Assembly: GCA_003194525.1 (NCBI GenBank)
Contig: NBIV01000242.1
Coordinates: 46,898-110,897, forward strand
Direction of reading: 5' to 3'
Length of the DNA stretch: 64,000 bases
Origin: Gracilariopsis chorda
Lineage: Eukaryota; Rhodophyta; Florideophyceae; Gracilariales; Gracilariaceae
Shown here: in pieces, positions 9,592 through 64,000 of the stretch
Layout of the letters: every line of letters begins with the position of its first letter
Numbering within the stretch: the first letter of the stretch is position 1
Notes under the pieces: generated by a model
Told to the model about the DNA's origin: nothing
Database searches by the model: none
What the model saw: only the letters and a program-made list of their open reading frames with translations
Made by a program: the position numbers and the translations under genes

Positions 9592-10307
9592 TGTAGCGCA
9601 ACGCGGTCGCAGAGGTTAATCACACGTTGCGACTTATATATATGGGCATATCGCATCGCCGCGGAAGCGTTCGGTATATGAACCGGAGGTCAATTACTCG
9701 AGGCCGAGGTTACTTGCACATTCTAACGGACATTAGTTTACTTGCCACTTTGGCACACTTAGCACACGTGTAGTGGTGTTTGCACCTAATATTTAGGAAT
9801 AGCAACATTCTATTTATCTAATTTAATATAGCTGCCTGACAGTGGGCCGGCGCCGCCTATACTTAGGCAGGCGACCGTGACCCCACTGCAGGGAAGTAAA
9901 CACAATAACAGAGTGTTCGTCTCTGACTCAAAAACCCTTGGTGCCTGATAAACTCCATCGGAGAGCCACCACCGGGTGTAAGACTAGTTACTCCACCTCG
10001 TAGTATCTCGAACCGCATTCTGCGCCGCGTTATCATCCGCTCTGCGTGTTCCATCATTTCGCTTACATTTTCCCTGTTACAGGCAGCATTCCCGTGTCCA
10101 CCGGTGATCCCCTATTTCTTTGTCGCTTGTGTTGCGCTTCCTTTCCGGTTATAACGTACGCCTGCACGCACGTCGTGACGGTGAGCCTCGGAGTTATACC
10201 CGACTAGCGCGCCCACCACAGGTGCCCCTGTTTACTGTTGCTACCCTATACAGAGAAAGTTCCGAACGCCTTCGCGTGTCTTTCCCCTCGCTGGTTATTG
10301 CACCACA
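9592..10307 (+). repeat. Element 1, 5' LTR
   Basis: It starts TGTAGCGCAACG and ends TTGCACCACA, 716 bases. It is a direct repeat of 20222-20896, with long identical blocks (for example from about 9660 on and around 9840-9890). A TATATATATGGG stretch lies near 9640. The 3' part differs from the 3' LTR by a 14-base block near 10206 and by an indel before the shared TTGCACCACA end. No clear tRNA primer-binding site follows. Confidence 0.9.
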
Positions 10308-18210: not shown

Positions 18211-20139
18211 TTAGTTCCCATCTTTCTGGTCCATTCTCGCTTGGAGTGCACCTTGCATTTGTGCGACGTCACTTGACACCATGTCGGATAAGCCAGCCTC
18301 CTGGAGGAACTGAGAGATCACAGCAGCACGCTGGGCATCATTCATCGCTGATGCGGCCGGTGCACCCGATGTGGACGGAACTGGAACCGGCGCAGCCAGA
18401 GGAGGCACAGAAGCTGGCGCCGAAGCTACAGACACTGAAGGCTTTGCTCCATGGCCCACCGGATCCGTCGCCACGGGCATGTTTCCGTAATTCACATCAG
18501 GAGCATCACCCACCATTGGATCATTCGCATCCGCCGCGTGGAAGAACTCGTCTGTAACGACAAGCCCAGTTGAGTGTCCCGAAGGGATGGTTCTTTTGGC
18601 ATCTCGAAAAATGAAGGCCTCGTCTCGAGTAATTTTCACCCGTGTCTACTGATCATAATAGATGAAATCGCCAACTAGAGGAGTCATCCTTCCTGGTGAT
18701 CGGTGATTTCTATCCTACTCATCGATGCGAGCCACCTAGTCCACTGGCACTGTACTGCCATCGGTATTGTCAATAACATTGAGGAGGCTCGCCACCCCTG
18801 AAAGGTTTCCATAGCCGCCGAGTGGGATTCTGAGGTCAAGGGAACGGACGCGACTACGAAACTTCGGTGAGATATACCAGAGACGATATTGGCCTTAAAC
18901 CTCTTGGAGGAGATATACCGCCGTTCGCGCAGCCCACTCCGTGTTCACAGTAGACCACCACCCCGTGAACGGGTTGTTCATTAACCAGCTAACCACGTAC
19001 GTGATGCAAGGCGGAAGCTCTACATAGCATCCCCAGCACACTTCAGTGGAGGCCCAGGCGAATGAAATCGGAACATATCTTCCACGCATGTGGCGAGGGC
19101 GAGTCCTATTCGCTTCAGTGTTCTGTGAACGTATAAGATATATCCAACGGGAGTGACTTCTTCGTTCGAAACGAATCATCCTTTGAAGGTAAGACGATGG
19201 TGATTCACGTGGAAGATATCGAAACTCGGCACACAATTGCGGACGCGTCCAACACAGTACGTTGTTGTGCACAGGGATCCCCTGGTATTGCTCAATAGTG
19301 TGCGCGAAGCGCTCGAGATTCTCTCTACATTGGATCTCCGCGAGAATTCGATGGAAGGCCACGTCAAAGCGGAAGTTAGTTGAAATCGGACGGTCTGAAT
19401 AAGTTCGGTAGAACCGCTGATGCGCCACCTTGATGAGGGCTGCTCGTGCGTTGGCGTCCGTGTCCCCATGATAGTGGATACTGACCTTAGAAGGAATGGC
19501 AATCCGGTGTTTACAGTCAAATGTTGAAGTCATATAGACATGAAACTCACCCGGTAACCGGCCAACACCATCGGCATACGATTCGATAATCATCTTTAAG
19601 CAGAGCCCGTGAGGGTGAAACCAAGGAGCCCGTAGATAAGGCACTGCGTTCTGTCGAGGATCAACCGCTTCTAACTCTTCATAAGAGGCCCATGGTTCTA
19701 GAGGGAGGTTTCCCGGTATCAATTGTTGTGAAGGCCACAGCGAAGTCTGTGGATTCAGTTGTTGAGGCTGCATAGCCGGCGGGCAAACCTGCTCGGCAGG
19801 TTGGTAGTTCGATGGGTGTGGCGTAGCAGTTGCTGGAGGATGACTCGCTTGAAGCAGAAGATCTGTATTGAAGCCACCTACAAATTGCGGGGAATTCCAT
19901 TGCATCACAGGTTGAGATCCAACGTTGTTGAGAGCTGCCGATGGGTTCCGAACGTTTGAAGTACCGCCTTGCGGCTGATTAGCCGACTTGTTCCGATCGA
20001 TATTCATCGGGACTGGAGAAATCGAAACCGAAGCGGTGGATGACGTTGCAGAAGCCTGTAAGCTTGAAGGCGAAGATGTAATCGCGTTGCGAGAAAAAGG
20101 CCTTTCCTGGTCGTAAGAAGACGAGACAGGATCGACCAT
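18211..20139 (-). pseudogene. aORF of element 1, conserved unknown antisense protein
   Basis: One minus frame of about 640 codons from MVDPVSSSYDQ (ATG 20139) to 18211, interrupted by TAA (18895) and three TAG stops (around 18675, 18650 and 18645-18610). The frame is also open upstream into the LTR. Residues 1-150 are P/Q/S/N-rich. Then come APWFHPHGLCLKMIIESYAD, HRIAIP, CWTRPQLCAEFRYLPRE, ERRSHSRW, GCYVELPP, TEWAARTAVYLL and, after the first stop, LDLRIPLGG. It ends with a short helical segment around QRAAVISQFLQEAGLS. All blocks recur in order in the aORFs of elements 2 and 3. No signal peptide or membrane segment is visible, so an Env role is unlikely. I know no family with this pattern; the function is unknown. 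It begins 83 bases inside the 3' LTR. Confidence 0.8.
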
Positions 20140-20221: not shown

Positions 20222-20896
20222 TGTAGTGCAACGTGTTTGCAAAGGTTTATCGCACGTTGCGACTCAGATATATGGGGATATCGCATCGCCGCGGAAGCGT
20301 TCGGTATATGAACCGGAGGTCAACTACTCAACGCCGAGGTTGCTTACAAATTCTAACGGACATTAGTTTACTTGCCACTTTGGCACACTTAGCACACGTG
20401 TAGTGGTGTTTGCACCTAATATTTAGGAATAGCAACATTCTATTTATCTAATTTAATATAGCTGCCTGACAGTGGGCCGGCGCCGCCTATACTTAGGCAG
20501 GCGACCTTGACCCCACTGCGGGGAAGTAAACACAACAACCGAGTGTTCGGCTCTGACTCAGGAATCTTTTGTGCCTGCTAAACTCCATCGGAGATCCACC
20601 ACCGGGTGTGGGACTAGTTACTCCACCTCGTAGTATCTCGAACCGCATTCTGCGCCGCGTTATCATCCGCTCTGCGTGTTCCATCATTTCGCCTACATTT
20701 TCCCTGATACAGGCAGCATTCCCGTGTCCATCGGTGATCCCCTATTTCTTTGTCGCTTGTGTTGCGCTTCCTTTCCGGTTATAACGTACGCCTGCACGCA
20801 CGTCGTGACGGTGAGCCTCGGAGTTATACCCGACTAGGTGCCTCTGTTTACTGTTGCTACCCTATATAAAGGACGTTCACAGGGCATTGCACCACA
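20222..20896 (+). repeat. Element 1, 3' LTR
   Basis: It starts TGTAGTGCAACG and ends ATTGCACCACA, 675 bases, a direct repeat of 9592-10307. The first 60 bases and the region around 20505-20570 hold most substitutions. Because the aORF starts next to it on the other strand, this LTR probably also serves as the aORF's upstream region. Confidence 0.9.
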
Positions 20897-34743: not shown

Positions 34744-34780
34744 CATTGAGGTGTTTTTTTCTTATTTTTTGTAAAGTACT

Positions 34781-40584: not shown

Positions 40585-40693
40585 ATGTTGATTGAACGGA
40601 GGCGTTGCGCCAATAAACACGCGCGCACGCCCCCTTCAGCGGGTGCAAAAACTTCTCTTGGCGCAAGGCCTCCCTTCCATTCAAAACATCAAC

Positions 40694-40734
<41 letters not shown>

Positions 40735-41107: not shown

Positions 41108-41229
41108 GGATTTGTAGAACAACGAGTGGCATCTCCTTACCATTTTAGTAAAACACGCGGGCGTGGGCGTCCTGGCGCTCCCACATGGCATTTCAAAATG
41201 CCCACAGAGGTATTGTAAATGCAGTTTTG

Positions 41230-42890: not shown

Positions 42891-42899
42891 AAGCATTTT

Positions 42900-44775: not shown

Positions 44776-44789
44776 ATTACAGTTTTACA

Positions 44790-46940: not shown

Positions 46941-47218
46941 GGTATCGTCTAACAACCAGACGTCGTAGCTCTGCGGGTATGCTGTAGATCTGCACTGCTT
47001 CTTGAAATGAAATATCAAACACCGTTCCTTCTGCGAGCATTTCGCTTGCAATCACCATTTAACGAGACCTTTCAAACTTCTGTCCGTTGATATTCTTGGC
47101 ATCTTCATAAGAGCTCGAGTCGCGATTCAGGAGCAGCAAACAAAGAGAACCAGCTCAAAATCGGATGTTGACACACCTTTGATCCTTTAAACGCACTGTT
47201 CGTCTTCCGTGTGCTCTA

Positions 47219-48720
47219 TCATGTACATGTATGAATCGCAATCATCTGTAGGTACCTTAATGCTGTATTCGCCGTGTTCATTGGGCACTGGAGCAGAAAT
47301 CGTGCGATGTACACGTACTTTTCAAAATACGAAAGGTAGTTGAGGCTCGCATATGCTTCTGACCATGCAAAATATCTCTTCATCGTAGACGGCTGCGATG
47401 TGGAATGAATCTGATTTGGCCCTCTTAGCAGAAAGTTTCGCTCTTCTTCCAGGTGAATGGGAAGTGCGTCTACTCTAGCTATGATCTGAACATGGAGAAA
47501 CTCAAGAATTCTCGAAGTTCTGTTGACGGCACCCACCCCACGCGCACGCAAGTATGCAAGAATATCGTTTTGCACCTTCGGCTCTTGTTGCTGCTCGTAT
47601 TGCATGCCTGTCTCAATAGCCACACTCACATTGGGCACCACATCCTGTGCTTTGGGCTGCTGAAATGCGTATTGAATCAGATAAGCCACCACGCACTACT
47701 CTTGCGTGCCTTTTACGTTGATATTAAAGCAATAAGGCTTGTTCAGTGTTAGGTTGCACGTCAAAGTACTGAGGTTTTATGCGGTAGATCAGGCGACTCG
47801 TGCCTTCTTCAATATACGTCTCCGGCACAATCATGTCGCTGTCATATACAAACGTGCACCACCCAGCTTGATTCTGGCACAAAGACAAGTGAAGCTACGT
47901 ACAAATGGGCCAAACAAGGCCACGCAACACATCTTATCCACTGAGAAAGATTTCTTCTGCGCGAATCAGATTGTCGTTCAAGTCAAAGTCTTCAATCATG
48001 CATCTTTCGAGCCGAACGAAGATCTGGTGATGAGTCACATTGCGCTGTTGGAATTCAAGCTCCAATACCAGTCTCAAGCCCGTCGTTCCAAAGTTAGGCT
48101 CTGACTTCTTCACAGATGCCTTCATGAAGTCATTTTTGTATTGGATTTACACCCTTCCAATCAGATCCAGTTGGTCAAGTGGACAAGAGCGGTTAGTATG
48201 TGCTATGAATGAGCTACGATTGCTGGTGTCCATACCAAGGCGCTGGATGTCTTCTTGTCAGATGCTCATGGTGATTGTAATGATGAGAGAAGGAATTCCT
48301 CTCCGTGCCACAGTCACCTGTATATCTATGCGCTTGATCTTCCTGTATGCTAGTGGGCTGAACGAGACATCGAGGAGAAAGATACGTCCAATTTGCGCTA
48401 CTTGGGATTCTGAAAACGGACCATGTTGCTGATATGCTGGCTGGATCTCCTGCTCTTGTATAATGCGAACCTGTTGTTTTCTCCATAGAACCCACACTCT
48501 CATGTCTTCAATATTTGTGTGAGTGCAAAGTAATCGCATCTGCATCAATGGTCCACTCTTCAGAAACACTTTGTTCGAGTACAGTCTTCGTTTTGCGCTC
48601 TCGGCCCAAGTGAACTTTTGGAGCTTCCATTCGTTGTTTTCGAGACCTGAAATGTGCCGTGTAGGGTTTTTTGCATTCAAATAAAGGCCGTTTCAAACGC
48701 TTTGTGCTGATCTCCATACG
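47219..48720 (-). pseudogene. Rep domain of Helitron copy 2
   Basis: Minus-strand blocks matching copy 1: KSGPLMQMRLLCTHTNIEDM and GRIFLLDVSFSPLAY (about 48570-48330), LELEFQQRNVTHHQIFVRLE (HUH box, about 48070-48010), VAYLIQYAFQQ (tyrosine block Y-x3-Y, about 47690-47660), then HSTSQPSTMKRYFAWSEAY (about 47420). The Lys after the second Tyr is changed to Gln. Confidence 0.75.
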
Positions 48721-49140
48721 GGTAGAGCAGAGGGCAAGCGCCTTTCTCTGCTAGGTTGTCTGGAGCATTTTGAGGCGCCCCATCTCCAGCAGCAGGAGCA
48801 GCAGGAGCAGCAGAAGCAGCAGCATTTTCAAGGAGAGTACCTCCACCTGCATGAGCAGCGCCGACTGTGGCAATTTGGGTTTCTTTGTATCCACGTACGA
48901 CTACTCCTCGTTCCGCTGCTTATAGGCTGATTTACACGGCTATATCGGCCTTCTATTGTTGTTGTTGCGTGTCAGCATGTATAGGTACCGCTCGCGCCCC
49001 ACGTCTGCCTTGGACTAGATTACATCGTACAGCTTCGGTCCGATGTCTCGTAAGTTGATATCCTGAGTGAAAGCACGCAGATTGGTATTGAAATAGTAAG
49101 ATGAATCCAAGCAAGGCACACCAATGACCCACAGAAAACT

Positions 49141-50330
49141 CTAGCACATGTTGTTTAGATTCTGCATGCCGAAAGCGAGAGATGCGTTGCCTTCAAATCT
49201 GAAAAAGGAAAGACCCCCTCCCGTCACATACGACATATTCATGAACGCTTGCGTAGTCCTGAAGAGTGAATTGAAGTTGAAGAAATGGGATTGTAGCGCT
49301 CTTAGACTGTATAGACTGCGAATAAACTCGTTTCTATCCCGTCTGCGAAATGTGACGTCGCATATCGACATTATTTTCATTACATAGCACGATACGGTTG
49401 CCGTTTTTCGAAGCAGAACGCCACCATAATAATTGCCGCTATGAATTCTCAATGTATATTCGGGGTACGGACAGAAGGATATAGTCTGCGAGTCCTCGCA
49501 GCATCTTTCGCGTCTCCCTTGACCCGCAGTTGGAACCGTCTCAAACTTTGACAGGCGTGCACGGATTGATGGATCGTTCAACGCCTGAGCTGCCACGGTA
49601 TCCCACACAAATTATAAGCGATAGTTTCCTAGATCAGAACTCCCAGCAGACTGCATTATCGTAGCATCTAGCTGCTGCTGTGGCTGCTGCAAATGCTGCG
49701 GCTGCTACTGCGGTGCCTTGAAAGGAGCAGGAGTGATCTCATCTTATTCACATCCGATGGGAACAGGCATTTGCTCTTTTTCTTCAGCGTCGGGCAGAGC
49801 AGACTGCTGTGGCAGCTGTGAGGGAGCCGGAGTAATCTCATTCTCTTCCAACTCCATCGGTATGGGCATCTGTTCTTCTTCTGGTTGAGCTTGTGGCAAA
49901 GCAAGCTGCAACGGTTGCTGCGAGTGAGCGGGAGCTCTCTCATTCTTATCCCTTTACCTCGCAGCGGGCATCTGATCAGCATGCATCGATGGAAGAAATG
50001 GAGGCATTGGAGGCGGGAGAATGTGAGATGGAAGGCATCTCACAAAATCGAGAAATACAAATATCGTAGAGAACTTCGGTAGTGCGATGAAAATAGACCC
50101 ACTTGCCCCAGCAACGGAGGTAGGTGCACAAGTAATGTCATATTCATCAACGGCTGGAACAATGGGCACTTGCACGTGCGTTTCGCTCTCATTTACCACC
50201 GCTTCATCTGGAATGGGAAGAACTGGTACTCGTCTAGGTCGTACAGCCTTTCGCCGTGCCCTACCGCTCTTGACGCGAGGAACTGCACATTCTTGCCTTG
50301 CACCGCCTGAGTTTGCCATTGGCCATCCCA
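49141..50330 (-). pseudogene. N-terminal part of Helitron copy 2
   Basis: Matches 34781-36400 of copy 1: NSGGARQ-type repeats (only a few left), RRKAVRPRRVPVLPIPDEAV, LPSHILPPPMPPFLP, the EENEITPAPS-type repeats (about 49900-49730), then MWDTVAAQALNDPSIRARL and KFETVPTAGQ. Copy 1 has a TAG where this copy has the Lys before FETVPTAGQ, so the copy 1 stop is a private mutation. The Cys region is partly lost. Confidence 0.7.
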
Positions 50331-51319
50331 AACTTGCTCTGGCACCGCCAGCGTCGGCCGTAGTACCTCTGGCATTGGATCTGGCACTTCCGAAGTTCGA
50401 TCAGGTTCCACCAGAGTTCGTACGTGAACCTCTTTGCCTTGTAGTAATTTACAAAAACATAAGACCGAACAATTTAAGTTTTTAACCCCTAAGAGGTTTG
50501 CCAGAGTTTCAAAATAATTTCCAACATAAAAAAGTTGAAATTGAAAATATTGGTTGCAGTTTGCTGCTTTGCATCCACCAGGCCTAGTTCCATGAGCAAT
50601 TAAAAACCTACTGCAACAAATATGTTTCCCGATGCAGCCGGGCACAGCAAAGAGATTCTCCACACACTTTTGTTGAACCTTGACGAGTGGATTGTCCCCT
50701 GCCAATTTTGAAGATGTTTGATGTTTAATCCGGGTCCTGTTGTAATAAAGCAGTGCATTTACTAGCACACCGAAGTGCTCTTTCCGGCCCAAAGAGATAA
50801 GACACTGCGGCCGCCCCAAAACGTGCACAAAAAGCAGAAATTAGGTCCACGAAACTCTCAGACGTCTTAAATCGCTGTTACGTCACCAGTATAGTCTTGT
50901 GGTACACCTGAGCTTTCAAAGATTCGTTGTACTCCGTGGGTTGCTCTTGCGACGTTCTGTACACGAACTTGTCCTTGCCTGCGTCCCATACTAGCCATAT
51001 TGCCCAGAGTAGCAAGCGTTTACAACAATACGCTACAGCCCAAGCCGGAAAAGGTAGACAAAGGAGTGGTTTGGTTCGGCACGCAAGATTCTATTTGCGA
51101 TGCGCCAGTGTGGCATATATGTCTGTGCAGCATGCTGCAATGGCGCAGCACAACTTGCGAGTTACGTTTCGGAACTCGCTTTACTGCTAAATGACTCGCA
51201 ATGCAGTCATTTACTGTAGTGCAAGCTGCCGAGCAGCAGGGATATTCAAAATGCAGCACCAACCAAGAAGCCAGTAAGCTGTACGTTTTGATGCTACTGC
51301 TGCTGGTGCTGAATATTTC

Positions 51320-52034
51320 TGTAGTGGAATAACCAGCGGAGGAAAGGACACATGAAGGCGTTAGTGATCCTTCTCTATAGAGAGCAGCAACAGCAGACAG
51401 AGTCATTTCTGGCCAAGCACGCTTGCCGGGCGTAAACCCGGACTCAACTTCATGATGTGGGTAGGAGAGAGCGGTATAATAACGATAAAGTGGTCGCGAG
51501 ACAGCGAAAAGAACAAAAGAGAACACCGTTAAACACTGGAGTGTCACATGTATAAGGGAAAGTGTAAAGGGTCAAGAACAACCAACAAGGACGAAAAGAG
51601 TAATGCGATATGCGGTTACATACGCCACGAGATGGAATAACTAATCCCGCGGAAGGAGCTGCCCCTCGAATAGCTTTTATCAAATAACAGGAATTCCTGA
51701 GTCAGAGCCGAACACTCGGTTGTTTTGCTTACTTCGCCGGAACGGGTGACGGCGGCCAGCCGAACTATAGGTGGCGCCGGGCAACTGTCAGGCGATTATT
51801 AGGAGAATAACTAAATCAAATATAACTATTCCTAAACATTAGTTGCATATACCACTACACGTGTGTTAAGTGTGCCAAAGTTGCAAGTAAATTAATATTC
51901 ATTAAACTGTGCAATTAACCTCGATATCAAGTAATTGACCGCCGATTCATATATTGAGCTATCCCGCCGCAATGCTGTAACTCTGTACATGAGTCGCGAT
52001 ACGCGATTAACTTCCGTGAACGCGTTACATTACA
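51320..52034 (-). repeat. Element 3, LTR (inverted relative to element 1)
   Basis: The sequence is the complement of the element 1 LTR along its whole length: TGTAGTGGAATAACCAGCG at 51320 pairs with the LTR end of element 1 (TGTGGTGCAATAACCAGCG as complement). ACTATAGGTGGCGCCGGG at about 51764 matches the complement of the 9855 region, and it ends CGCGTTACATTACA at 52034. 715 bases. It is the 3' LTR of an element oriented on -. Confidence 0.85.
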
Positions 52035-52050
52035 TATCTCCCTCCTAAGG
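52035..52050 (-). promoter_or_regulatory. Polypurine tract of element 3
   Basis: On the minus strand TTAGGAGGGAGATA abuts the TGTAATG start of the LTR. The same A/G tract plus ATA spacer precedes the LTR of element 2. Confidence 0.65.
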
Positions 52051-52259
52051 TGTGAAAGAGACCTCACTAGCAACGGTTAAGCACGCAAAGCGAGTGTACA
52101 TAACGAACTTCCTGTTGCGGCTGATCCAGTCTGGTCGTCTCCCTACCATCAAACGTCTTTCCCTTCTCGTAACGCGATCACTTTTTCGCCTCTAGCGAGT
52201 GTTTCGCACTTTTCTTCGATTCCATCGACATCTTTTGCGTCTTATCCGCCTGTTACTCG

Positions 52260-54162
52260 CACTTAATCCATAGACAATGTTCCGAAGAACTCGGCCAAGC
52301 CACAGCAAGACGGCTCTTTCTACGTTCCAGACGAGTCACTGGTTCCCAACACAAACCTTGGCCAGCAACCTGCGATGCAGTGGAATCCTCCGCAGTTCGT
52401 AGGCGAGTTCGACAGCGCTTCTCTCTCACAGATGGGTCCTCAGCAACCTACGGTTTAGATGCGTCTTGCAAACTACCAGCCTTCTCAAGAGGTCTGCCAA
52501 CCAACGACACAGCCTCACTAAATGAATCCGGTGGTGTGGCAATGGTCTCAAAAGCAGCTACTTCTAGAAATCTCCCTCAGATTCCGCGGGTTTGATAAAA
52601 TGAACTAAAAGGGGCGGATCCGTGACAGACTGCAGCTCCGTCCTTACGAGAAACATTGTTCCACCCGCATAGGGTTTGTCTCGAGATTACCATCGAGTCT
52701 TGTACTGATGAGATTTGCCGATTACTGGGTGAGGTGCACACTTACATGACGCCATCTTTCAACTGGAGACAGTGGGTTGCTTTTCCGTCTCAGGCTATTA
52801 TCCAATACAATCTTGAAAGTAACGTGAACGCGCCGGCAGCACTTATCAAGGTGGCAAATCAGCGGTTTTACTGAAATTATTCAGGCATTCCCACTCCCAT
52901 CAACTTCTGTTTTGACATGGCCTTCTATCAAGCGCTCTGGGAGATAGAATATGGAGAGAATCGCGCTTGTCTTGCGTACGTTGTTGAACAGGTGCCAGGG
53001 TATACGGGTTCATGAAAAACGTGTTGTGTTGTACAATTCCGCTGTTGCGTGCCGAGTTCCGATATCTAACTTGTGAATCAGGGTCATCTCAACTTTAGAA
53101 GATGATCCGTCTTAAACGACGTAGCTATTCTTGTTGGGGATATCTCATTCCTTAACATAACACTGACGCGAATAGAAGTCGCCCTTGCCACATGCGTGGG
53201 AGATATGTTCCGATTCTATTGTCCTGGGACTCTACCGAAGTGTTCTGGGGGTGTTCCATAGAGCTTCTTCTTTGCATCATATATGTAGATAGTCGGCTAT
53301 TGATAAACCCATTCACCAGATCGTGGTTCATGGTAAACATGGTTTGGGCTGCGCAAGTGGCGGTGTATCTGCTCCAAGACGTCCACGACCAACATCATCT
53401 TTGGTATATTTTACCGACAATTAATCGTCGCACCTGATCCCTTAATTTACAATCGTGCTGGGCAGTAATGGAAACTCGTCAGAGCTGATGTGTTTCCTCA
53501 ATGTTATCGAAAATATCAATTGGAGTGCAGTACCAGTATTCTAATCTGCTCCTAACGATGACTTAGACACAAGTAACCGATCACTGGGAAGAAACACTCC
53601 TCGCGCGGATGTATTCATCTATTACGATCCGTGGACGGGGATGACGGTTACTCGAGATAAGGCATTAATAGTGCAAGACGGGGAAAGAGTTTTCCCGGCT
53701 TGAAAACCAACAGGATTTGTCGTCACTGACGAGTTCTTTCTAGGGGCAAATGCACAAGATCCAATGTTGGATGATTTTCCTGATGAAGATTAGGAAAATG
53801 CTCCTGTGACGACGGGAGATCCGGTTAAGCAGAAAGTGGATCCATTGGTTTCTCTGGCTTCGTCGCCGACGTCTATGGCTTCTCTGGCTGTGCCGGTTCT
53901 GATTCCGTCCGCGTTAGTTGCATATCCCTTAGCAGTGATGAGTGATGCCCAACATACCGCTATGCTTTCTCAGGTTCTTCAGGAGGTTGAGTTTTCCGAC
54001 TTAACGTCGAGTGAAATCTCGCAAATGCATGGTGCTCTCCGCGAAAGGATTGTACCTAGGAGAAGTAGTGAATATCAACGAGATGTCAATGAAACGTTCC
54101 CTAGAAAACTTAGGGGCTTGTTCAGTTACATTAGCTTGGTTGTTGTGAGCTCGTACAGCTAG
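52260..54162 (+). pseudogene. aORF of element 3, conserved unknown protein, broken
   Basis: It is collinear with the aORFs of elements 1 and 2. QQPAMQWNPPQFVGEFDS matches QPVMQWNSPQFVGGF of element 1. FHPHRVCLEITIESCTDE to MTPSFNW (about 52655-52770) matches the WFHP block. RGRYVPILLSWDSTEVFWGC (about 53195-53255) matches the GRYV...GC block, and TGFVVTDEFFLGANAQDPM (about 53715-53770) plus MLSQVLQEVEFSDL (about 53955-54005) match the C-terminal part. More than ten stops and frameshifts. It begins about 220 bases past the LTR. The pol genes of this element, expected beyond 54.2 kb on -, are not there, so the element is truncated. Confidence 0.75.
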
Positions 54163-54876
54163 GAGCCGCAAGAAAAGAATTTCCAGTAAACTGTGCATTT
54201 CTCTGATATTTCTCTGCTTTTCTCTTCTTTTGAAATATTCATGTGTGTATAGTATGCGACTTGATGCTTTCGTTCAAGAGTCTTCCTTCTTTTTTTGAGG
54301 CTTTGTTAGTTCGTGTCCTTCTAGTGTCCATTCGACCAAGATGTTGGCCTCATATGAGGCCAGCCGATGTGAGAAAAGAAATAAATAAAACATTTCACTT
54401 CCGGCTCAGAAACAAGTAGTTTTTGAACTGGGGGTTCAAATTCAAAGAGTTTAAGCACAAACAAGCCATTTTCAACGGCTTGTTTGTGCTTAAATGCTTC
54501 GAAATCTGTAGCAATAGGTAGTTGTAACAGCTCAGTTGGCTCAAACCAGTTGAGAAGCTGTAGTAAACCCGAGTTCAAACCTCGCTGAGTTTCTTCAAAC
54601 TCTAAATATCCTTCGGGATCTCGACTGATTCTTTTAATAATTATTTCTAAGAACGCATACGCACCCACTTGAACAACAGAATGGTTAAGGTGACATCTGT
54701 TAAAGGGGTTGTTTCGCCATAGAATTAATTAAATCTTGCAAGTTTCATAACGCAGATTGAAGCAGTAGGGGGCTTACGGTAATTGAACTTTTGCTTTTGT
54801 CAACAGCACATAAAAGCTTTGATTCTAGCTCAATAAACGAGGTTGACGCATGTGTTTACGTCTTTTTTTACATTTT
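54163..54876. other. Spacer with a minus frame and a perfect hairpin
   Basis: A 115-codon minus frame (54668-54321) has varied composition (EGYLEFEETQRGLNSGLLQL, LFVLKLFEFEPP) but no motif I know. It includes a perfect inverted repeat at 54450-54494 (18-base arms, 9-base loop). A further near-palindrome CTCAGTTGG / CCAGTTGAG lies at about 54530-54555. It could be the 3' side of the piggyBac element or a host fragment; I cannot tell. Confidence 0.4.
54450..54494. repeat. Perfect 18-base inverted repeat
   Basis: TTTAAGCACAAACAAGCC pairs fully with GGCTTGTTTGTGCTTAAA across a 9-base loop. There is no T run after it, so it is not an obvious terminator. Confidence 0.8.
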
Positions 54877-56878
54877 TTATATCATAACACCGTGACAGTC
54901 ACGTAAATGGTCAGCAAAACATTTTCTACCAGTTCCACTATGACATATATAAATGGAATCATTCTTGAAAGCAAAACAATCAGAACAAATAAACTTTGAC
55001 TTCTTCGTTGATTTGCAAATTTTGCAGCGTCCTTGGTAAAGTGCCATTGTATCGGTACCATTACTTCTCTTACGTTTGCGACTGCATTGCATCAAATGAA
55101 TGCCCGTACCAGCTCTTTTCGGAGCTGACTCGATATCATCCAAAACTTGGTTGGTTCTGTCTATAAGGCCAGTTGTATCCCAGGTATTATCGATTAATTC
55201 ATCTGCCAATTTTGTATAGAATGTATTTGGATTGAGGTTACATCGTCCTTCTTTAGCTGACTTGTATATATTCCACGCGTCAACCATGCGCATTGCCAAA
55301 AGCGAGCAATTAACCCTGAAAGACTATTCCTTAACTCTATTTTCTTCTCAAGTTTGAGTTCATCTTGGCGGCACCGATTGTGCCGATCAATCATCGAACA
55401 GCACTCATAGTACTCTTTGCATACTTCTGGAATAGGTGTTTCAATCTCAACAATCTTGGTGATGTTGTTAACCTTCCTCCAACGTTCTCTTAAGATTGGA
55501 GTAGCAGGATTGGTGGTTCCATAGGTAGATATAAAATACCTTCGATCTCTGTCCACCCATAAAACTGCCATGAGATTCGTGTTAACTGAATTTCCCTTCG
55601 ATAGAAGCGTAACGTGCTCTCCCCTTTGAGCAAGTGTCAATTCTGACAAATGTTTCATAGGAAACTCTCTAGTAGCAGTCTTCACAACCCCGATAAATCT
55701 TAACCCTTTTTCCAATAGAGAAGTTGCAGTTTGGACAGACGCAAAAAATGAATCGGCGCAAACAACCCTTTCAGTTCCAAACCAAGGCTCAACCAGTCGC
55801 AGAAGAACAGCAGTTCCATGCGGATGGTTCTCAGAGAACGAAGATTGTGAGTTCTTTTCTGAACCCATACTGAGTTCAATTCTCATCATAATACCACTTT
55901 CTCCGCCACAAACGGATTTTATCTCACATCCGTTTTCGGGTTTTCGATCCACTGCTGTGTAATGAGGGAGGCCAACGTCAACCCATTCTCCACCAAGTCC
56001 GTACCAACGTGACATGCTTTCGTCAACACATAGAGAGTGAGACGGTGTGACCAATGTCCGGCGATGGTCGTTAATTGCTTTCACGAAATCCGTGACGAGA
56101 TTCCAACGAGCAACTCCACCTTCGTCGCGCTTTCCATCTCCGCTAAAGACAATGCAGCTTCTAATAGTCTCAAATCTGTTCCTGGCCATAATTTTTTCAA
56201 GGTCAGGGGATGATAAATACCGATACTGAGACTTTTGACTCCACAAGTCACGCCTGTCTGAGAACTCTAATCGAGTCATCAAAACGAGAATGCCAAAAAA
56301 CTTTAGACTCTCTCCTCCAGTAGTCCTCGAAGAATCTTTTCGGCAAAGGGTACCAATAGTTCTATCCACAATCACTTTCAAATAAGTGTTAGGAAAAATC
56401 CACATAAAGCAGTCGAGTGGAGTCAGATTATTCGGAGCGTGACGGGCGGTGATGAAATCTCCAGCTGGGCCAATGACTTTCCACTGATGCAATTGCACAA
56501 ATCCATTTAACGGCGTCGAAACATCAGAAATGATCCACTTTCGGCCATGGACGTCCACTGATTCGTCGCCTGCAACTTGAACGTCTGTGACATTTACGTT
56601 CTGCAAAGGTACAGAAGCGTTACTTTCTGTCACGATCGAGTCGCTATTGCTCGGGTCGTCGGCAGTGTTGTCCTCATTACAAATACCAGTGCTGTCTCCC
56701 AGACGTTCGGTTTGTTTCTCTCTGTCGTCAACATAATCGCCCTCTTTAACGTTGCAGAGATGCAAAGTACACTGCTTGGTTTGGCCCGGTAAGTCAAACC
56801 AACAAGTGATCACTGACCGATTTCTGTTGTTTAAATTGACTGTTTCCACATTTGTGACAATACCATTGACCATAGTGG
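54877..56878 (-). pseudogene. piggyBac-type transposase, one frameshift, 5' end cut by an LTR
   Basis: DDE_Tnp_1_7 (piggyBac) pattern: NNLTPLDCFMWIFP at the start of the domain, FFGILVLMTRLEFSDRRDLW, then catalytic Asp in LCVDESMSRWYG, RVVCADSFFAS and LWVDRDRRYFIST (about residues 296, 386 and 453 counted from the Met at 56909). After YYECCSMIDRHNRCRQDELK the frame shifts by one base in an A run at 55298-55301. The other frame continues to a Cys-rich C-terminus (CKICKSTKKSKFICSDC, CHSGTGRKCFADHLRDCH), the zinc-binding tail of the family. The open frame runs past 56878 into the LTR, so the first 10 or so codons are LTR-derived. The true N-terminus is missing. The enzyme would cut and paste at TTAA sites. 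All three catalytic residues are kept. Confidence 0.85.
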
Positions 56879-57684
56879 TGTGGTGCAATGCCCCAAAGGG
56901 GAAAAACACCGAAAGATGTCCGGGATCTTCCTCTCACGAGGTGAACCCAGTTGGGTAGAGCCCTCCCAGAGGTGTCACGGCGAAGCCGGTTTGTAAGACC
57001 AGGGACACCTGTCGCGACTCGCGCAGGGAGGTGAAGGCGAAGAATCGGTATCCGCGTGAGCGGGGTGTGATCCTCAGTAGAGGTATGTTTCCACGTAAGT
57101 GGGGGTGTGTGAGCGGATGCGCACACGAGGGCCGCGGATAGCGGGAGGTGCTACCCTAAAAAGGGAAAGAGGAAGGACGAGTGGGTCGCGAGAGCGACGA
57201 GTAGATACGGCAATGTCGGTGGACAGGACTCCCTATACAGGGCGAAACACCAATATGATTGGAACAATTAGTACTCCCAATGATGGGTCTCCTTTAGATG
57301 TGCAAGGGGGGTGAACTTCCGTACACTACGGTGCTTCCCTCCAAGGAGGAGTTGAGAACACGCGGAGGCGGTAAAGCTCAGAGCCAATTCCCCAGGTTGG
57401 GGTCCCTTGTTGGGGAAGGTTTACTGGTGCGACGGCAGTGCGCCGTCGCACTAAGTACTAGCTTCCCAGAAATGGGTGTGAAAATAATAAATAAAATTAA
57501 CTAAAATACTCCACATTCCGTGGCAACATCCACTACTGTGGCCAACCGCCAATTGACCCAAAACCGTGTCCCACGTGTCCATACCCACCATTGTGGGGCG
57601 TAGTTCATATACACACTACACAACCGATAATATCGGGAAAGCGTTCAAGTACCCAGAATCCCTCCCTGAGGGCGTTGCACTTCA
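56879..57684 (-). repeat. Element 2, 3' LTR
   Basis: On + it starts TGTGGTGCAATGCCC, the exact complement of the element 1 LTR end GGGCATTGCACCACA, and ends GGCGTTGCACTTCA, complement TGAAGTGCAACGCC. 806 bases. It is packed with short inverted repeats, including a perfect 10-base stem at 57427-57451. Short open frames here have no family motif. Confidence 0.85.
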
Positions 57685-57698
57685 TATCCCCCCCCTTA
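57685..57698 (-). promoter_or_regulatory. Polypurine tract of element 2
   Basis: On the minus strand TTAAGGGGGGGGATA directly abuts the TGAAG start of the LTR. This is the strongest tract of the three elements. Confidence 0.75.
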
Positions 57699-57741
57699 AG
57701 ACGGGAAAACGACCGCGGGCGCGGAGGATTCCCAGACGAAA

Positions 57742-59529
57742 ATGGGTGATAAAAGCGCGTGCTTTGTCTCCGGTTCTCCGGTAAATCCCTCTGCACCAGA
57801 GTCATCAAGCACACAAACGACAACAACAGCCACCCTCCAAAAGGGACAAATGAACGACGACAACCATATCAACAGCCACAGCCAACCGCTGAGACTTCTC
57901 GGGCGGTACACCACCGGTTTCCGGTCAGTTCCCCTGCCTCAGGGCGATCGAAATCCGGTACAACCGGGGAATATGGCTGCTGCAGCCGACCATCCCTTCG
58001 CACTACCACCTTCGGTGGTGTCCTCCGGAACCACTCCGGTGTCCAACTGGCCAACCTACAACACCCTGGTGGGGCTCAACCCGATGAATCGGAATCACGC
58101 GTCGCGCCTGCGCCTTGCCCCGTGGTTTCACCCCGTCGCTGTCCTCAATGAGGGGTTGGTCACCGCTTATGCGGATGGTTCAGACACCCTTCCGGGGGAT
58201 CTGCCCAGAGCAGTCACCACATCGTGGGATTGGCGTCACCGGATTGCGATTCCGCGTCACCACCTCCGAAGAAACTCGGGCGAGACCGTCGCTGCGGCGC
58301 AGACCGCGTTGACGCGGATGGCGTACCAACAGCAGAGCCGGGCTCCATTCGATGTACCGGTCCCACCGGAGTTTGGCTTCGACGTTAGCTACTTCCGCAC
58401 TCGCGGGGAGATTGGGTACGGCGAGAACCTGTTCCGCCTCGAGACCCTCGCTTGGAGGAATTTCCCCGCAGCGCGGCAAGAGGCCCTTTGCTGGGAGCGA
58501 CCGATTATTCGGGCGGAGTTCAGGTACCTTCCCCGGCAATACCGGTCCAACTTTCTCCAAAACTTCATCCGCTACGAGCGGCGTTGGCGATCCCGATTCG
58601 GGTACTTTATCCCGTATCAGAACGTGGAGATAGAGCGGATTGCGCCGCCTCACCGACTAGGTCGGTATGTAGCACTCCCCGAGTGGTGGCGCTTCCATGA
58701 AGCCTGCCGGGGGTGCTACATAGAACTCCCGCCGGTACTTACGTACCTCGGTTCGCTGCTCATGCAGGATCCCCGGTCGGGGTTGTGGTCCGTAGTGGTT
58801 ACGGAGTGGGCGGCCCGCAGTGCGGCTTATATCCTCAACGAGGCGTACGACCAGTATCGTCTCTGGTTCCTTCAACCGCGTGTGCGGGCAGCGATCCGAA
58901 ACCTGGATCTTCGCATCCCCCTTGGGGGCCAGGCCAACAATGAAGAGGTCCTCCAATTACTTGGGTACATCGACAGCGTTAGCTGGAGTGAGGTCCTGCT
59001 GGAGCAAAGCGGTCGTCTGGATGGCGGCAGCGGTAACACCGGTGGTCCGGGACTCGGTAGAAACACCGCCCTTGCGGGGGATTTTATCTACTTCGACCCC
59101 TGGGAGTTCCGGGAAATTTCCTCCGAGGAGGCGCGAGAGCTTCGCGATACGCCCCGGCATGTGCCGGAAGACCACCCGGTGGGGTACGTCGATTCTGACG
59201 ACTACTACCGCGCATACGGCGGGGATGACCCAATGGTCGATAACGAACCGGAAGAACCCGGGGAGATGGACGTAGAGGAAACCGGCGCTAGCGCGGAAGC
59301 TTTCCCAGAGGGGGTATCTCCGGCCGAGCCGGCTGCTGACCCTTCAACGGCAAGTGCCGGACCTTCTATCCCCAGCGGGGTGACGGCGAATGAAAACGAA
59401 ATCATCGCACGTTTCCTCCGGGGTGCCGGTCTTAGCGCTGCCGAGGTATCGGGGGATGTCACCACCATGGCGGACGCGTTGGCCTACCGCCTTGCTGGGG
59501 GTTACGCCCCGGACGATGGGGGTGAGTGA
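57742..59529 (+). CDS. aORF of element 2, intact conserved unknown protein (595 aa)
   Basis: ATG 57742 is the first Met of the frame, 57 bases from the LTR. Residues 1-115 are polar, T/S/P/N-rich and probably disordered. A conserved domain spans about 122-396: APWFHP (126), RHRIAIP (165), CWERP (250), AEFRYLPR (258), FIRYERRWRSR (275), GCYIELPP (324), LMQDPRSGLWSVVVTEWAAR (340-359), LDLRIPLGG (388). Residues 440-545 are acidic and P/A-rich (DDPMVDNEPEEPGEMDVEE). A C-terminal helix-like segment (IIARFLRGAGLSAAEV) is kept in all copies. There is no signal peptide, membrane helix, zinc knuckle or nuclease motif. It recurs in order in elements 1 and 3, so it is a genuine gene under past selection. 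Function unknown; candidates are a regulator or silencing-escape factor of the element. It is not Gag, because element 1 has a separate zinc-knuckle Gag. Confidence 0.85.
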   Translation: MGDKSACFVSGSPVNPSAPESSSTQTTTTATLQKGQMNDDNHINSHSQPLRLLGRYTTGFRSVPLPQGDRNPVQPGNMAAAADHPFALPPSVVSSGTTPVSNWPTYNTLVGLNPMNRNHASRLRLAPWFHPVAVLNEGLVTAYADGSDTLPGDLPRAVTTSWDWRHRIAIPRHHLRRNSGETVAAAQTALTRMAYQQQSRAPFDVPVPPEFGFDVSYFRTRGEIGYGENLFRLETLAWRNFPAARQEALCWERPIIRAEFRYLPRQYRSNFLQNFIRYERRWRSRFGYFIPYQNVEIERIAPPHRLGRYVALPEWWRFHEACRGCYIELPPVLTYLGSLLMQDPRSGLWSVVVTEWAARSAAYILNEAYDQYRLWFLQPRVRAAIRNLDLRIPLGGQANNEEVLQLLGYIDSVSWSEVLLEQSGRLDGGSGNTGGPGLGRNTALAGDFIYFDPWEFREISSEEARELRDTPRHVPEDHPVGYVDSDDYYRAYGGDDPMVDNEPEEPGEMDVEETGASAEAFPEGVSPAEPAADPSTASAGPSIPSGVTANENEIIARFLRGAGLSAAEVSGDVTTMADALAYRLAGGYAPDDGGE

Positions 59530-59616
59530 AACCTCTAGTCCAGTTTCCTGGTTCTTCTTTCCCTGGCTATGCCAGTTAGTGTAGTGTAGTATTGTGGGGA
59601 GCTAGCTGCTCCCTTG

Positions 59617-59622
59617 AATAAA
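59617..59622 (+). terminator. AATAAA poly(A) signal candidate for the aORF
   Basis: AATAAA is 88 bases past the aORF stop and about 100 bases before the pol stop on the other strand, so each convergent gene could have its own 3' end in the 190-base spacer. Confidence 0.45.
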
Positions 59623-59720
59623 CTTTCCCGTTTAGAACGGTGCTTCTCGGTTGAGTTCCCCGTCTTCGACGGACCTTGTCTTGTTATCCTTTCCTTTCGC
59701 TCTCCGCTCGCGCGGCAACG

Positions 59721-62432
59721 TTACCCAACTTGGGCATTTACCAGCGTGGCTGGAGCTGCAGTTCCCGTTTGACGGTGGTATCGCACGACCTGCGACCGTG
59801 GGAGGTGTTCCATTGGCTCCCACGTATCCCCACTGGGGTCGTACCCGTACCAGCGGACGCGGTATTGTAGAATACCATCCTGGTCCCAGGTGTGTCCGAC
59901 AAGTCGGTCTACTACGAACTCTCGTTCGTAGACCTGCCGGCCGTGCCGGGTGGTGGTTGTAATCCCTGGCGAGGGTTGCCCGCGGTGCGGTATAATGTCC
60001 CTTGGCAGGGTGTTCGGCGATAACTCCGACGTTGCCGTGCGCTGTCCTAGTGGCCGCTGCTCATGCGGGAAAATATCCCTCAAGAGGGTGTGTGGTGCCA
60101 CGGTTTTCACCGGCAAGTCGTTCCCCAGAGGGGTGTCGTTGTTTCCGTCTTCACGGTAGGCCGGGCGAACCGCCAGTCGGCGGGGGACTTGGGTTCCGCC
60201 TTCGCGGTTGAGCGCACGAACCGCGAGTTTGCGGGAAGATGACCGCTCCTGCGGGATCGGCATTTCCACAATCCCCTGGGGGGTCCCGTGCGACACGGTG
60301 ATTGGGTGGCAAACCGCCTCCCTGCCAGGCGCACGAGCGCTCTGCACCATACGTTCCGGCGATGCCGTGGTGTCCCCGGCTACTGACGGGTTGCCTGGGG
60401 CTAACTCCGGTACACCGGTATTTTGGTCAAAATTCCCCTCTGGGGGGTTCCGGGCAGGTGCCGATGACACCCTTTTCAGGGGAATTGCCGCTGAGCGCAG
60501 TGCACCATCTCCGTGAGGAGGAGCAGCGTCCGGTACGACCGGTTTCGAGCGTGCGATGGCGCGCGTTATTCCCGAGTTCCTCGGTTCTTCGCCGCAGCGA
60601 TGCGGGGGTTGGCGCAAATTATTCCCCGTAGCGGGGGCTTTGATTCCGTCAACGACGGGAGGCGTTTCCGGTGCTTGCGAGCCAGGGCTTAAAGCTTCGA
60701 CTGCAGCTTGGCCGCCTTTTTTCCCCAAGAGGGGTGTGGGTATTCCCCTGTGAGGCCGGCGTATCTGGGCGCCCCTTCTCCGCAGGGCGCGGGTCTGATC
60801 GACCTGATTGAACCGCTTCCGCGGGGACTTCCGCCAACGGCGGCTTCGAGGCATCGGGCGATTGCCTTTCCGCTGCTGCGGTATTGGAGTGAGGCTTCTC
60901 CTTTTCCCGGGACAAACGGTGTATTTGCCGCTTTTGCAGGGCCTGTGCGTCTGGTTCCTGTTGCACAGCACTGCCCGGGAACGGGGGATTAGTGTCGCGT
61001 GACATACTCCGTGCTCCACGGTCAGTGTTCCGTATGTTACGGTGTGTTTCCCGTTGCGACGGTGATATCGTTCCTCGAAAACGAGTGTTCTCCTCCCCCT
61101 CCTTAGACGGAGCGGCGGGATAAGGGATAACATTCCCCGCCTGGCGGGTATAGATGCGCGCCAGTGGGGCAGACGTGGTAGGGGCGGGCGCTGAGGGCCC
61201 GAATTACCCGGCTGAGCCGGTGAGTCCGACAGAGTCGGTAGGTCTGAGAGTCCCCGGCTGGGGTGTGGTAGTACCGTAGGTCTAGTACTCCCGGATTGTT
61301 CCGGTGTAGCGGAGTCCGTAGAAACGGGGTTGCCTGGATCCAGGACTACCTCTGACGAGGGAGGAGGGGCGAGGACAACACGATCACGGGAAATCCGTTC
61401 GTGCGTGTCCCCCATCTCTACCACGACAGTGTCGGTGTTAACAGAGATCACCTTGAAGGGTCCATCCGCCACAGGCGAGAGTTTGTGACGCTTCTCCCGT
61501 TCCGGGTTGTAGTATTCCTTCCTGATGAAGACGTAGTTATTTGCCCGAATCGGGGATGGTTTTCCTCGCACGCAAGCGTCAAAATCCCGCTTGTAAGCGG
61601 CTTGGGCCCGTGCCATAGACTTCCGCTCAGCGGGGACCAGCTTGGAAAGCCATCGCTTCCATTGCTGCCGGTAGATACCCACAGATGGGAAATTGTCCAA
61701 GGTAGCTTGGGGTTCCAGCGCCACAGGCGGGGGTGTTCTAGATAGAACTAACTCGAATGGCGAAACTCCGGTAGTCCGGTGTACCTGCGTATTGTACGCG
61801 TAGGTTACCGCATCAGCGTAGAGATCCCAATTCGTTGGGTGGTCAGCGACGTAGGAACGTAACGCCGCGAGTAACGTCCGGTTAAACCGTTCAACTTGCC
61901 CATTACACTGGGGGTGGTAGGTAGTCGTGAACAAGTTCTTGACATCCAGGATGCGACAAACATCCTGGAAGAACTTGCTCACGAACTGCTTCCCGTTGTC
62001 AGAGAGCACCTCTACAGGGGGACCGTAGACAAAAATCCAGTGCGTCACCAGAGCCTGGGCCACCGTGAGAGCGGTTATCCTCCGAAGAGGGACAGTCCGT
62101 ACCAGCTTAGAAAAGCGGTCGGTAATGACAAGTAGAAACTTGTTTCCACGTTTCGTGGTGAGTAATGGTCCGAGAATATCGATCGCGATAAACTCGAGCG
62201 GCGCCCTTGCGGGGAATAGTTTCATCTTCTTCGCATTTTTGCGGAGTTTGACGCGATTCTTCGCGCATTCGCTACAAAACCGCACAGTTGCGTAGCAATC
62301 CACCGCCATTGCGGGCCAATAGAAATCCCTTCGCAGGGTTAGGTAGAGTTTCCTCCCACCTGGGTGACCTCCAATGGGGGCGTAGTGTGATAGATGTAAA
62401 CACCCGCGATTGCAGGGAATGTGGTACCACAA
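59721..62432 (-). CDS. Integrase with long linker and C-terminal chromodomain, element 2
   Basis: 903 open codons; the Met is arbitrary because pol continues from RNase H through a one-base frameshift near 62390-62400. HHCC zinc domain: H16, H23, C53, C56 (LSHYAPIGGHPG, FCSECAKN). Core: D85 (IAIDILGP), D145 (LSDNGKQF), E181 (NGQVERFNRT), a D-x35-E spacing, so all catalytic residues are present. Then SPFELVLSRTPPP, a basic tail and KEYYNPEREKRHKLSPVADG. Residues about 345-830 are a P/R/S-rich low-complexity linker, much longer than usual. The chromodomain is at 837-890: REFVVDRLVGHTWDQDGILQ, YRVRWYGY, DTWEPMEHLPRS, with the aromatic cage residues in place. It would join cDNA to chromatin marked by methylated H3. 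The linker may owe its composition to the inverted-repeat lattice. Confidence 0.9.
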   Translation of the reverse strand: MWYHIPCNRGCLHLSHYAPIGGHPGGRKLYLTLRRDFYWPAMAVDCYATVRFCSECAKNRVKLRKNAKKMKLFPARAPLEFIAIDILGPLLTTKRGNKFLLVITDRFSKLVRTVPLRRITALTVAQALVTHWIFVYGPPVEVLSDNGKQFVSKFFQDVCRILDVKNLFTTTYHPQCNGQVERFNRTLLAALRSYVADHPTNWDLYADAVTYAYNTQVHRTTGVSPFELVLSRTPPPVALEPQATLDNFPSVGIYRQQWKRWLSKLVPAERKSMARAQAAYKRDFDACVRGKPSPIRANNYVFIRKEYYNPEREKRHKLSPVADGPFKVISVNTDTVVVEMGDTHERISRDRVVLAPPPSSEVVLDPGNPVSTDSATPEQSGSTRPTVLPHPSRGLSDLPTLSDSPAQPGNSGPQRPPLPRLPHWRASIPARRGMLSLIPPLRLRRGRRTLVFEERYHRRNGKHTVTYGTLTVEHGVCHATLIPRSRAVLCNRNQTHRPCKSGKYTVCPGKRRSLTPIPQQRKGNRPMPRSRRWRKSPRKRFNQVDQTRALRRRGAQIRRPHRGIPTPLLGKKGGQAAVEALSPGSQAPETPPVVDGIKAPATGNNLRQPPHRCGEEPRNSGITRAIARSKPVVPDAAPPHGDGALRSAAIPLKRVSSAPARNPPEGNFDQNTGVPELAPGNPSVAGDTTASPERMVQSARAPGREAVCHPITVSHGTPQGIVEMPIPQERSSSRKLAVRALNREGGTQVPRRLAVRPAYREDGNNDTPLGNDLPVKTVAPHTLLRDIFPHEQRPLGQRTATSELSPNTLPRDIIPHRGQPSPGITTTTRHGRQVYEREFVVDRLVGHTWDQDGILQYRVRWYGYDPSGDTWEPMEHLPRSQVVRYHRQTGTAAPATLVNAQVG

Positions 62433-64000
62433 TCTGTGGGCGGGCTTCGACCTTTCTTACGAGGTAGCCTTTGTCGTTTACCCCGAAAGGGAGATCTTCA
62501 CCACCGTTGATACGGGCACGAATTCTCGTACAGAATGGGTCGCCGAATTGTTCTCGGATCATTTCTTCCGGTGATACCGGTACAAAGTTTCCCGGTAACG
62601 GGTTCTCAGATTTATCTCGCGATGCGAGTAGTTCGTCAAAATCAGCATCCTCGTCCCAGGTTTCTGGCCTAGCCTCGACGGCATGTTCCGGATCATCCGG
62701 GTCTATAGCCATGAAGCATGGGACTTCATCATCCTCCGTTGGGAGTGCTTCCCCACTTGTGGGTAACCGCGATAAAGCGTCGGCCTGAGTGTTCTGCGCA
62801 CCCTTTTTATAAATGACTTGAAAGTCATATTCCGCGAGGCGGAGTCTCCAGCGCATGAGGCGTCCCGACGGGTCGGAGATATTCATCAACCACCTCAATG
62901 AGGAATGATCCGTGTACAAGGTGAAGTGAATTCCCATAAGGTAGGGGCGCAGAGTGGTCATCGCCCATACGACGGCGAGGCACTCTTTCTCCGATACGGA
63001 GTAGTTCCGCTCATGAACATTGAGCGAACGTGACCAATAACCAATTGGATGTCGTTCCCCCTCGGGGTGGTTTGAAAAAGAGCACACCCGACTTGGTAGT
63101 CGCTCGAGTCCGTATCTACGGAGTATGGCAACCCAAGTTTTGGGAGATGTAGGATTGGTGCTGATGTGACAGCCTCCTTTAAGGAGTTAAAAGCTTCCGA
63201 TTGCTCGGGCGTAAATGTTCCCAGTTTTGGGGGGTTCCCCTTTCGCAACAACGCGTTCAGGGGCGCTGCAGTATCCGAAAAGTTCGGGATAAACCGTCGA
63301 TAGACGTTGACCAGCCCCAGAAAGGAGCGCAGTTCCGTTTGAGTACGGGGTTCTTTCGCCTCAACGAGGGATTTGACTCGAGCTTTCTCGATCGCTAACC
63401 GTCCAGGACGGATAATGTGACCCAGATACTTCACAGTATCTGTGAAAAACTCGCATTTCCTCAACTTGAGGGTAATTCCCGCATCGCGGAGTACGGTCAG
63501 CACGTCTCGGACGTGAGTGAGATGGTCGTCCAACGAGTTGGAGAAGATGATAATATCATCAAGGTAGACCAGACAACTCCGCCACTTAAAGCGGTTGAGT
63601 AGAATATCTACTGCACGCTGAAAGGTGGCGGGGGCGTTGGTTAACCCAAATGGCATCCGCTTGAAGCGGTACGTTCCTGCATGGCAGGTGAAATGCGGTT
63701 TTGTCGCGATCCTCCTGTCTGACAGGTACTTGCCAATATCCCCAATTGGCATCAAGGGCCGTGAACACGGTGGCGTCTCCAAGGGAGTCAATGCACTCGT
63801 CCATACGAGGGATGGGGTACGTGTCCCTAACAGTCACGGCATTGAGCCGGCGGTAGTCGACACAGAACCTCCAGGTTCCGTCAGCCTTTAAAGCCAGTAC
63901 AACTGGGGATGCCCAGGGCGATTGAGCGGGCTCAATCACACCTGCGCGGAGCATCTTGTCCACCTGGGACTGCTCCTCTTCCCGAGCTTTCGGACCTGCC
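62272..64000 (-). pseudogene. Reverse transcriptase and RNase H of element 2, runs off the window
   Basis: RT: AQSPWASPVVLALKADGTWR, FCVDYRRLNAV, YWQVPVRQEDRDKTAF, then a single extra base near 63690 and on in the next frame with YRFKRMPFGLTNAPATFQRA. The catalytic box is CLVYLDDIIIFS (YLDD, 63566-63555), then KYLGHIIRPGRL and ELRSFLGLVNVYRRFI. A single missing C in a C run near 63060 shifts to the RNase H frame: HPIGYWSRSLNVHERNYSVS, LYTDHSSLRWLMN, NTQADALSRL. About 100 spacer residues lead to the integrase zinc domain after an extra T near 62395. Apart from these single-base events the domains are complete, so either the copy died recently or the indels are assembly errors. Confidence 0.85.

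Follow-up and report, generated by a model that had tools for sequence, protein, structure and literature searches.

The window, by which we mean the whole 64,000-nucleotide stretch of Gracilariopsis chorda DNA that was analysed, holds three copies of one gene family in three LTR retrotransposons, referred to here as elements 1 to 3. In element 2, positions 57742-59529 of the plus strand form a single open frame of 595 codons, as the original prediction had stated, and this frame is a genuine gene of a chromodomain Ty3/gypsy element. The longest frame found in any of the six frames of 500 dinucleotide shuffles of 57601-59720 was 356 aa, against 595 aa in the real DNA. The features of element 2 are listed below, with the domains of pol read from an open copy elsewhere.

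57742..59529, plus strand: antisense, probably accessory, gene; intact, 595 aa, with homologues; pN/pS 0.43 in 24 copies
56879..57684, minus strand: 3' LTR, with TG start and CA end on the minus strand; 803/807 identical to the 5' LTR of the complete copy on contig C24; copies diverge beyond its edge
57688..57699 (about), minus strand: candidate polypurine tract adjoining the 3' LTR, a G run identified by eye
59617..59622, plus strand: AATAAA, candidate poly(A) signal of the antisense gene, present in 30/30 A, 2/2 A' and 17/17 B copies examined
59721..63791, minus strand: pol (RT, RNase H, integrase, chromodomain), convergent with the antisense gene; three overlapping frames in the window copy
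59793..59918, minus strand: chromodomain at the end of pol, PF00385, E 5.7e-10; coordinates computed from residues 839-880

The ATG at 57742 is located 57 bp from the 3' LTR, the antisense stop ends at 59529 and the pol stop occupies 59721-59723, so that the antisense gene converges with pol without overlapping it, across a gap of 191 bp. The position of the LTR edge, the ATG and both stops agree with the earlier claims that the gene is convergent to pol and starts beside the 3' LTR, and the wording "antisense to gag-pol" is right for the strand but not for overlap. Thirty element copies are alike from L001:614-646 (window 56855-56887) and carry unrelated flanks upstream of it. No LTR pair turned up when 50000-64000 and 41000-55500 were searched for repeats; the end of the window is also the end of the contig, and the 5' LTR of element 2 is therefore absent from the assembly there.

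Other mobile elements occupy the neighbouring DNA. A 571-aa open frame at 55194-56909 with a transposase domain (PF13843, E 1.7e-44), which we take to be piggyBac-like, abuts the 3' LTR of element 2, and the first codons listed for this frame lie inside that LTR. Two inverted related elements, at 33177-41093 and 44687-51311, are about 71-77% identical in DNA in pieces, and the PIF1-like helicase found in the first of them (PF05970, E 3.3e-28) suggests that the pair may be Helitrons.

The other two copies of the antisense gene in the window are damaged, and element 2 is thus the only one of the three with an intact frame.

18211..20139, minus strand: homologue of the antisense gene in element 1, with four internal stops
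9592..10307, plus strand: 5' LTR of element 1
20222..20896, plus strand: 3' LTR of element 1
52659..53895, plus strand: remnant of the antisense gene in element 3, in three frames; tblastn identity 31-38%

The open piece of element 1 at 18895-20139 (minus strand) matches the element 2 protein with 43% identity over 274 aa (E 3e-67). Every ordered sequence block that the original prediction had listed as shared is present in both elements 1 and 2, but the frame that carries them in element 1 is broken by its four stops and is dead. The description of the element 3 frame as broken was borne out by the three frames over which its remnant is spread.

Copies and subfamilies of the antisense gene

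The antisense family occupies at least 239 loci in the 91.3 Mb genome and falls into several diverged subfamilies; this count is made up of the 74 best-scored matches of one search and 165 further distinct places among the best-scored matches of three others. Among the 74 best-scored matches listed, 61 contain no internal stop. Subfamily A is the type of window element 2, and subfamily A' (L075 and L076) is 92-94% identical to it and has a longer N-terminus. Subfamilies B (e.g. L041, L047 and L060) and B' (L057 and L059) are 85-91% identical to each other and 43-50% identical to A. The nine nearest relatives of the element 1 type (L032-L040) all contain stops, and the protein P0003 represents a further subfamily. 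Dozens of open frames (e.g. C74:103377-104606) belong to a 643-aa subfamily, 47-49% identical to P0005.

The position next to pol was examined for A, B and element 1. The antisense gene stands convergent beside pol in 40 of 140 RT matches, strand being a filter of that count; the remaining 100 have no partner in this slot among the matches listed, and some of their contigs end. The complete copy on C24 is bounded by LTRs of 807 bp that are identical at 805 positions, and the 5-bp target duplication TCTGG is present on both sides. Its pol is open (1853 aa, with RT, RNase H, integrase and chromodomain), its gag is open in both pieces (one border codon was unread) and its antisense gene is open over 595 aa. 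With two differences in 807 bp between its LTRs, this insertion is very recent.

The window copy of pol is frame-shifted near the RT-RNase H border (62272-63791), and the same shifted frame ends 44 of the 140 RT matches. In a tree built from the 3' part, four copies with the shift (L001, L003, L029 and L030) do not group as a single clade, and the shift may stem from template switching, from a recurrent slip, from an assembly artefact or from a trans-mobilised sublineage. Where shifted-pol copies were paired with a listed antisense match, six of eight had no stop in the antisense frame.

Chromodomain and antisense protein rank the elements in the same order. For the chromodomain piece, identity is 42/69 between B and element 1, 37/69 between A and B and 33/69 between A and element 1, and for the antisense protein the corresponding values are 41-51% (51% on shorter frames), 43-49% and 36%. 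This agreement fits joint descent of the two, perhaps from one old acquisition.

Selection on the protein frame

The original prediction had taken conservation at the protein level as a sign of selection and named a dN/dS near 1 as the result that would speak against it. A first pN/pS estimate of 0.34 was obtained from 30 copies chosen by protein score, in which diversity was 0.014 for the antisense gene, 0.024 for the LTR, 0.030 for the gap and 0.033 for the end of pol. Because copies chosen by protein score favour a low pN, and the diversity values are biased in the same way, 24 copies were picked anew as the best 24 of 40 matches to the 186-bp noncoding gap, the other 16 being unused, and columns inserted relative to L001 were excluded from the count. 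These 24 copies gave pN 0.0127 and pS 0.0294, a pN/pS of 0.43 (bootstrap 0.32-0.58). Four other frames of the same copies gave 1.14, 1.20, 1.23 and 1.30, and the mirror frame on the sense strand gave 0.52, a value below 1 because this frame and the antisense gene share their third codon positions. The ratio of the mirror frame was higher than that of the antisense frame also in the seven pairs of subfamily copies that yielded complete values. A sense-strand gene hidden in the same DNA was considered and rejected on this ratio and on the longest listed sense frame, which has 157 aa.

Variants found in at least two of the copies fell 9, 7 and 29 times on codon positions 1, 2 and 3, and singletons fell 61, 67 and 65 times (Fisher p 0.0003), as selection in a replicating lineage would produce if each insertion then decayed neutrally. 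Between subfamily copies, dN/dS was 0.34 and 0.40 for A and A', 0.19 within A' and 0.22 for two pairs of B and B'; it was saturated between A and B, and one pair within B ran against the trend, with 1.0 synonymous and 11.0 nonsynonymous changes. The 3' end of pol, mostly linker, gave 0.69 in 30 copies, and two other frames of that strand gave 1.06 and 0.79. The antisense gene is thus conserved to a degree like that of other proteins of the element (0.43 against 0.69 for this mostly linker part of pol, with dN/dS of 0.19-0.40), and these sequence comparisons, with values well below 1, demonstrate purifying selection on the antisense protein frame.

Ten of the 24 copies are unbroken, two have an altered C-terminus and 12 carry stops or indels. 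The broken copies L062, L063, L064 and L071 are 99.3-99.8% identical to L001; their gaps relative to it are one or two bases long, and the contigs that carry them measure 10-24 kb, so that some of the breaks may be assembly errors.

The antisense protein and its relatives

In alignment A4, mean conservation was 0.27-0.29 over residues 1-105 and 0.52-0.69 over residues 141-490. Residues 151-200 and 251-300 are basic (+5 and +6), residues 451-550 are strongly acidic (-10 and -11), and the highest 19-residue Kyte-Doolittle means, 0.95 and 1.23, reveal no membrane-like stretch.

Searches of about 5.8 billion proteins, in which 8000 candidates were scored and only relatives sharing short words could be found, returned 4, 6 and 6 relatives. 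Of the six, three are named, and all three are from Gracilariaceae: BWQ96_03215 (P0003) and BWQ96_05177 of Gracilariopsis chorda, both probably from this same genome, and FGB62_50g12 of Gracilaria domingensis, which is 48% identical and places the family in a second genus. The three belong to the same protein family and were deposited as hypothetical proteins under names without any link to retrotransposons. BWQ96_03215 matches the genome at 100% over residues 1-491; the match of its model at C30:292265-293737 stops at residue 491, and a stretch present in the relative P0002 is missing from it, so this model may contain a false intron.

No significant match was obtained in Pfam, NCBIfam or PHROGs, where the weak hits were DUF6220 (E 0.092), TPR_10 (E 0.052) and phrog_5856 (E 0.28), and PDB sequences gave no match by protein or by profile. 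Pfam recognised no nucleic-acid-binding, transposase or cellular domain, none of 20 pattern matches in viral contigs was a relative, and plasmids gave no match. These results support the original description of an unknown family, and this protein family, like the red-algal chromodomain elements that carry it, looks new.

Two origins for such a gene bear on these results. Capture of a host gene, or of a gene from a nested DNA transposon, that keeps its former role seems quite unlikely: sampling of red algae is sparse, and a search might miss a host source that evolves fast, but the named homologues are the three Gracilariaceae proteins, transposase and cellular domains are lacking among the Pfam matches, and the gene is common to several diverged subfamilies, which suggests an old resident. 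A rearranged standard gene, Gag or Env-like, is the least likely of all the readings weighed here. The slot between pol and the 3' LTR is the place of env in retroviruses, but an Env-like ORF was rejected on the antisense orientation and on the Kyte-Doolittle maxima given above, which agree with the earlier statement that the protein has no membrane segment and is not Env-like. A rearranged Gag, a match to which had been named as grounds for refutation, was rejected likewise, since profile comparison with the element's own Gag pieces gave probabilities of 0.1% and 0.5%; that Gag is present separately and shows, by eye, a CCHC-type knuckle.

Antisense transcription, known systems and possible roles

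An AATAAA follows the antisense stop at 87 bp in A and at 91-92 bp in B (17 B copies were counted, with the B-like or partial loci L054, L056 and L059 left out), and it is kept though the flanks have diverged between A and B. In 3000 shuffles of either gap the motif arose in 0.7% and 1.1%. The dead element 1 has no AATAAA on its antisense strand. If the motif acts as a poly(A) signal in the alga, as we assume, its conservation fits a separate antisense mRNA, and this transcript may end before overlapping pol because the motif precedes pol. By eye, the LTRs of A, B and element 1 show AT-rich blocks upstream of the start codons; a promoter on either strand could make use of them, and taken alone they are no proof.

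An effect of the antisense transcript as such, by way of dsRNA or small-RNA control and with an incidental reading frame, is very improbable. The available part of PMC7264820 considers antisense transcripts of LTR elements in this role, and convergent transcription would yield overlapping RNAs if either transcript ran on; set against this, it is the protein frame, not DNA alone, that is constrained, and a transcript using the AATAAA before pol may stop short of any overlap.

The layout itself has been seen before. An additional antisense ORF in the slot from pol to the 3' LTR (aORF-3R) is described for maize Grande gene23, rice RIRE2, Silene Retand, PvRetro13 and fungal Boty, and such ORFs are called relatively frequent in plant elements; in plants, LTR retrotransposons with extra genes on the antisense strand have been on record since the late 1990s, with the function of these genes not settled (PMC7264820, as far as its accessible text goes). 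The original prediction had named HTLV-1 HBZ, HIV-1 ASP and Grande; RIRE2, Retand and Boty make the precedent more extensive than was implied (PMC7264820, same text). The red-algal gene shares with the aORF-3R the place, the strand and the presence in many copies, and the aORF-3R proteins too are described there as mostly without recognised relatives. Likeness to Grande and RIRE2 was judged by layout and description, not by protein sequence.

Where a comparison with Retand could be made, the red-algal case differs. PF04195 (the TRP28 domain) of the Retand/Tat group was absent from the Pfam matches of 10 family members (E up to 1), and the red-algal pol ends in the chromodomain PF00385, whereas Retand is assigned to a non-chromovirus lineage in the part of PMC11963269 available. 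The host, a red alga, also differs from those of the aORF-3R carriers. With PF04195 absent and a chromodomain present, the gene is a variant of the known layout. A chromodomain was found at the integrase C-terminus in A and, by eye, in B and element 1; it is the one chromovirus feature from which a placement in that clade might be argued, and brown-alga chromodomain Gypsy elements are described as unrelated to chromoviruses (PMC12477816, in the text at hand). Other extra domains in LTR elements are reported, in the accessible parts of the sources, from rotifers (PMC5408684), a brown alga (PMC12477816) and orchids (PMC9289625). The literature search found no report of an antisense gene in red-algal LTR elements; the available portions of the Gracilariopsis lemaneiformis papers describe many LTR elements and make no mention of antisense genes (PMC5970526, PMC3713064). 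The G. chorda genome paper may say more.

The candidate accessory gene was also compared with an antisense gene of a retrovirus. HBZ of HTLV-1 is a basic leucine zipper protein. The red-algal gene resembles it in being an antisense gene near the 3' LTR but does not overlap pol, and, since no Pfam family matches, there is no leucine-zipper domain of the HBZ type.

We consider it fairly probable that the gene is an accessory gene of a Gracilariaceae chromodomain Ty3/gypsy lineage and is read from its own antisense transcript. The basis for this is observed: the gene itself, its convergent place, its occurrence across several subfamilies that have diverged, the purifying selection on it, the AATAAA conserved behind it and a young copy in which all genes are open. 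A promoter in or beside the 3' LTR would drive an antisense mRNA, which would end near the AATAAA before meeting pol and would encode a soluble protein whose length suggests about 65 kDa, its conserved core containing basic stretches and its tail being acidic; this protein would serve the element's own cycle. Counted against this explanation are the 12 broken copies and two with an altered C-terminus among 24, the one pair within B with a nonsynonymous excess, the mirror frame at 0.52 and the missing AATAAA in the dead element 1.

The most likely role of such an accessory protein, put forward tentatively and at somewhat less than even chances, would be that of a nuclear protein that regulates how the element is expressed, silenced or integrated. 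This reading draws on the likeness in layout to Grande gene23 and the HTLV antisense proteins: the gene23 product is described as nuclear and expressed from its own promoter, and the HTLV antisense promoter as lying inside the 3' LTR (PMC7264820, PMC11963269, in the parts available). The likeness is a lead and not a test. A part in the assembly of particles or in reverse transcription, for instance as a nucleic-acid-binding accessory, is a rather unlikely alternative; the basic stretches at 151-200 and 251-300 and the retention of the gene in recently moved copies speak for it, while no nucleic-acid-binding domain was recognised in Pfam and a separate antisense transcript would be odd for a structural protein made in step with Gag.

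A bolder reading, which we regard as doubtful, is that the red-algal elements acquired the arrangement independently, as an antisense unit of a 3' LTR promoter, one gene and its own poly(A) signal that would encode a needed regulator of new fold, e.g. an anti-silencing or integration-targeting factor. If true, the layout would have arisen independently once more, in addition to the cases in plants, in fungi and in the HTLV group, and this would suggest that LTR retroelements generally need a regulator whose expression is separate from that of gag-pol. The red-algal elements provide at least one very young copy whose genes are all open, at least 239 loci and a compact genome, and the candidate poly(A) signal makes a separate antisense transcript directly testable. 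Should the layout have arisen independently, it would indicate that retroelements repeatedly need a protein produced separately from gag-pol.
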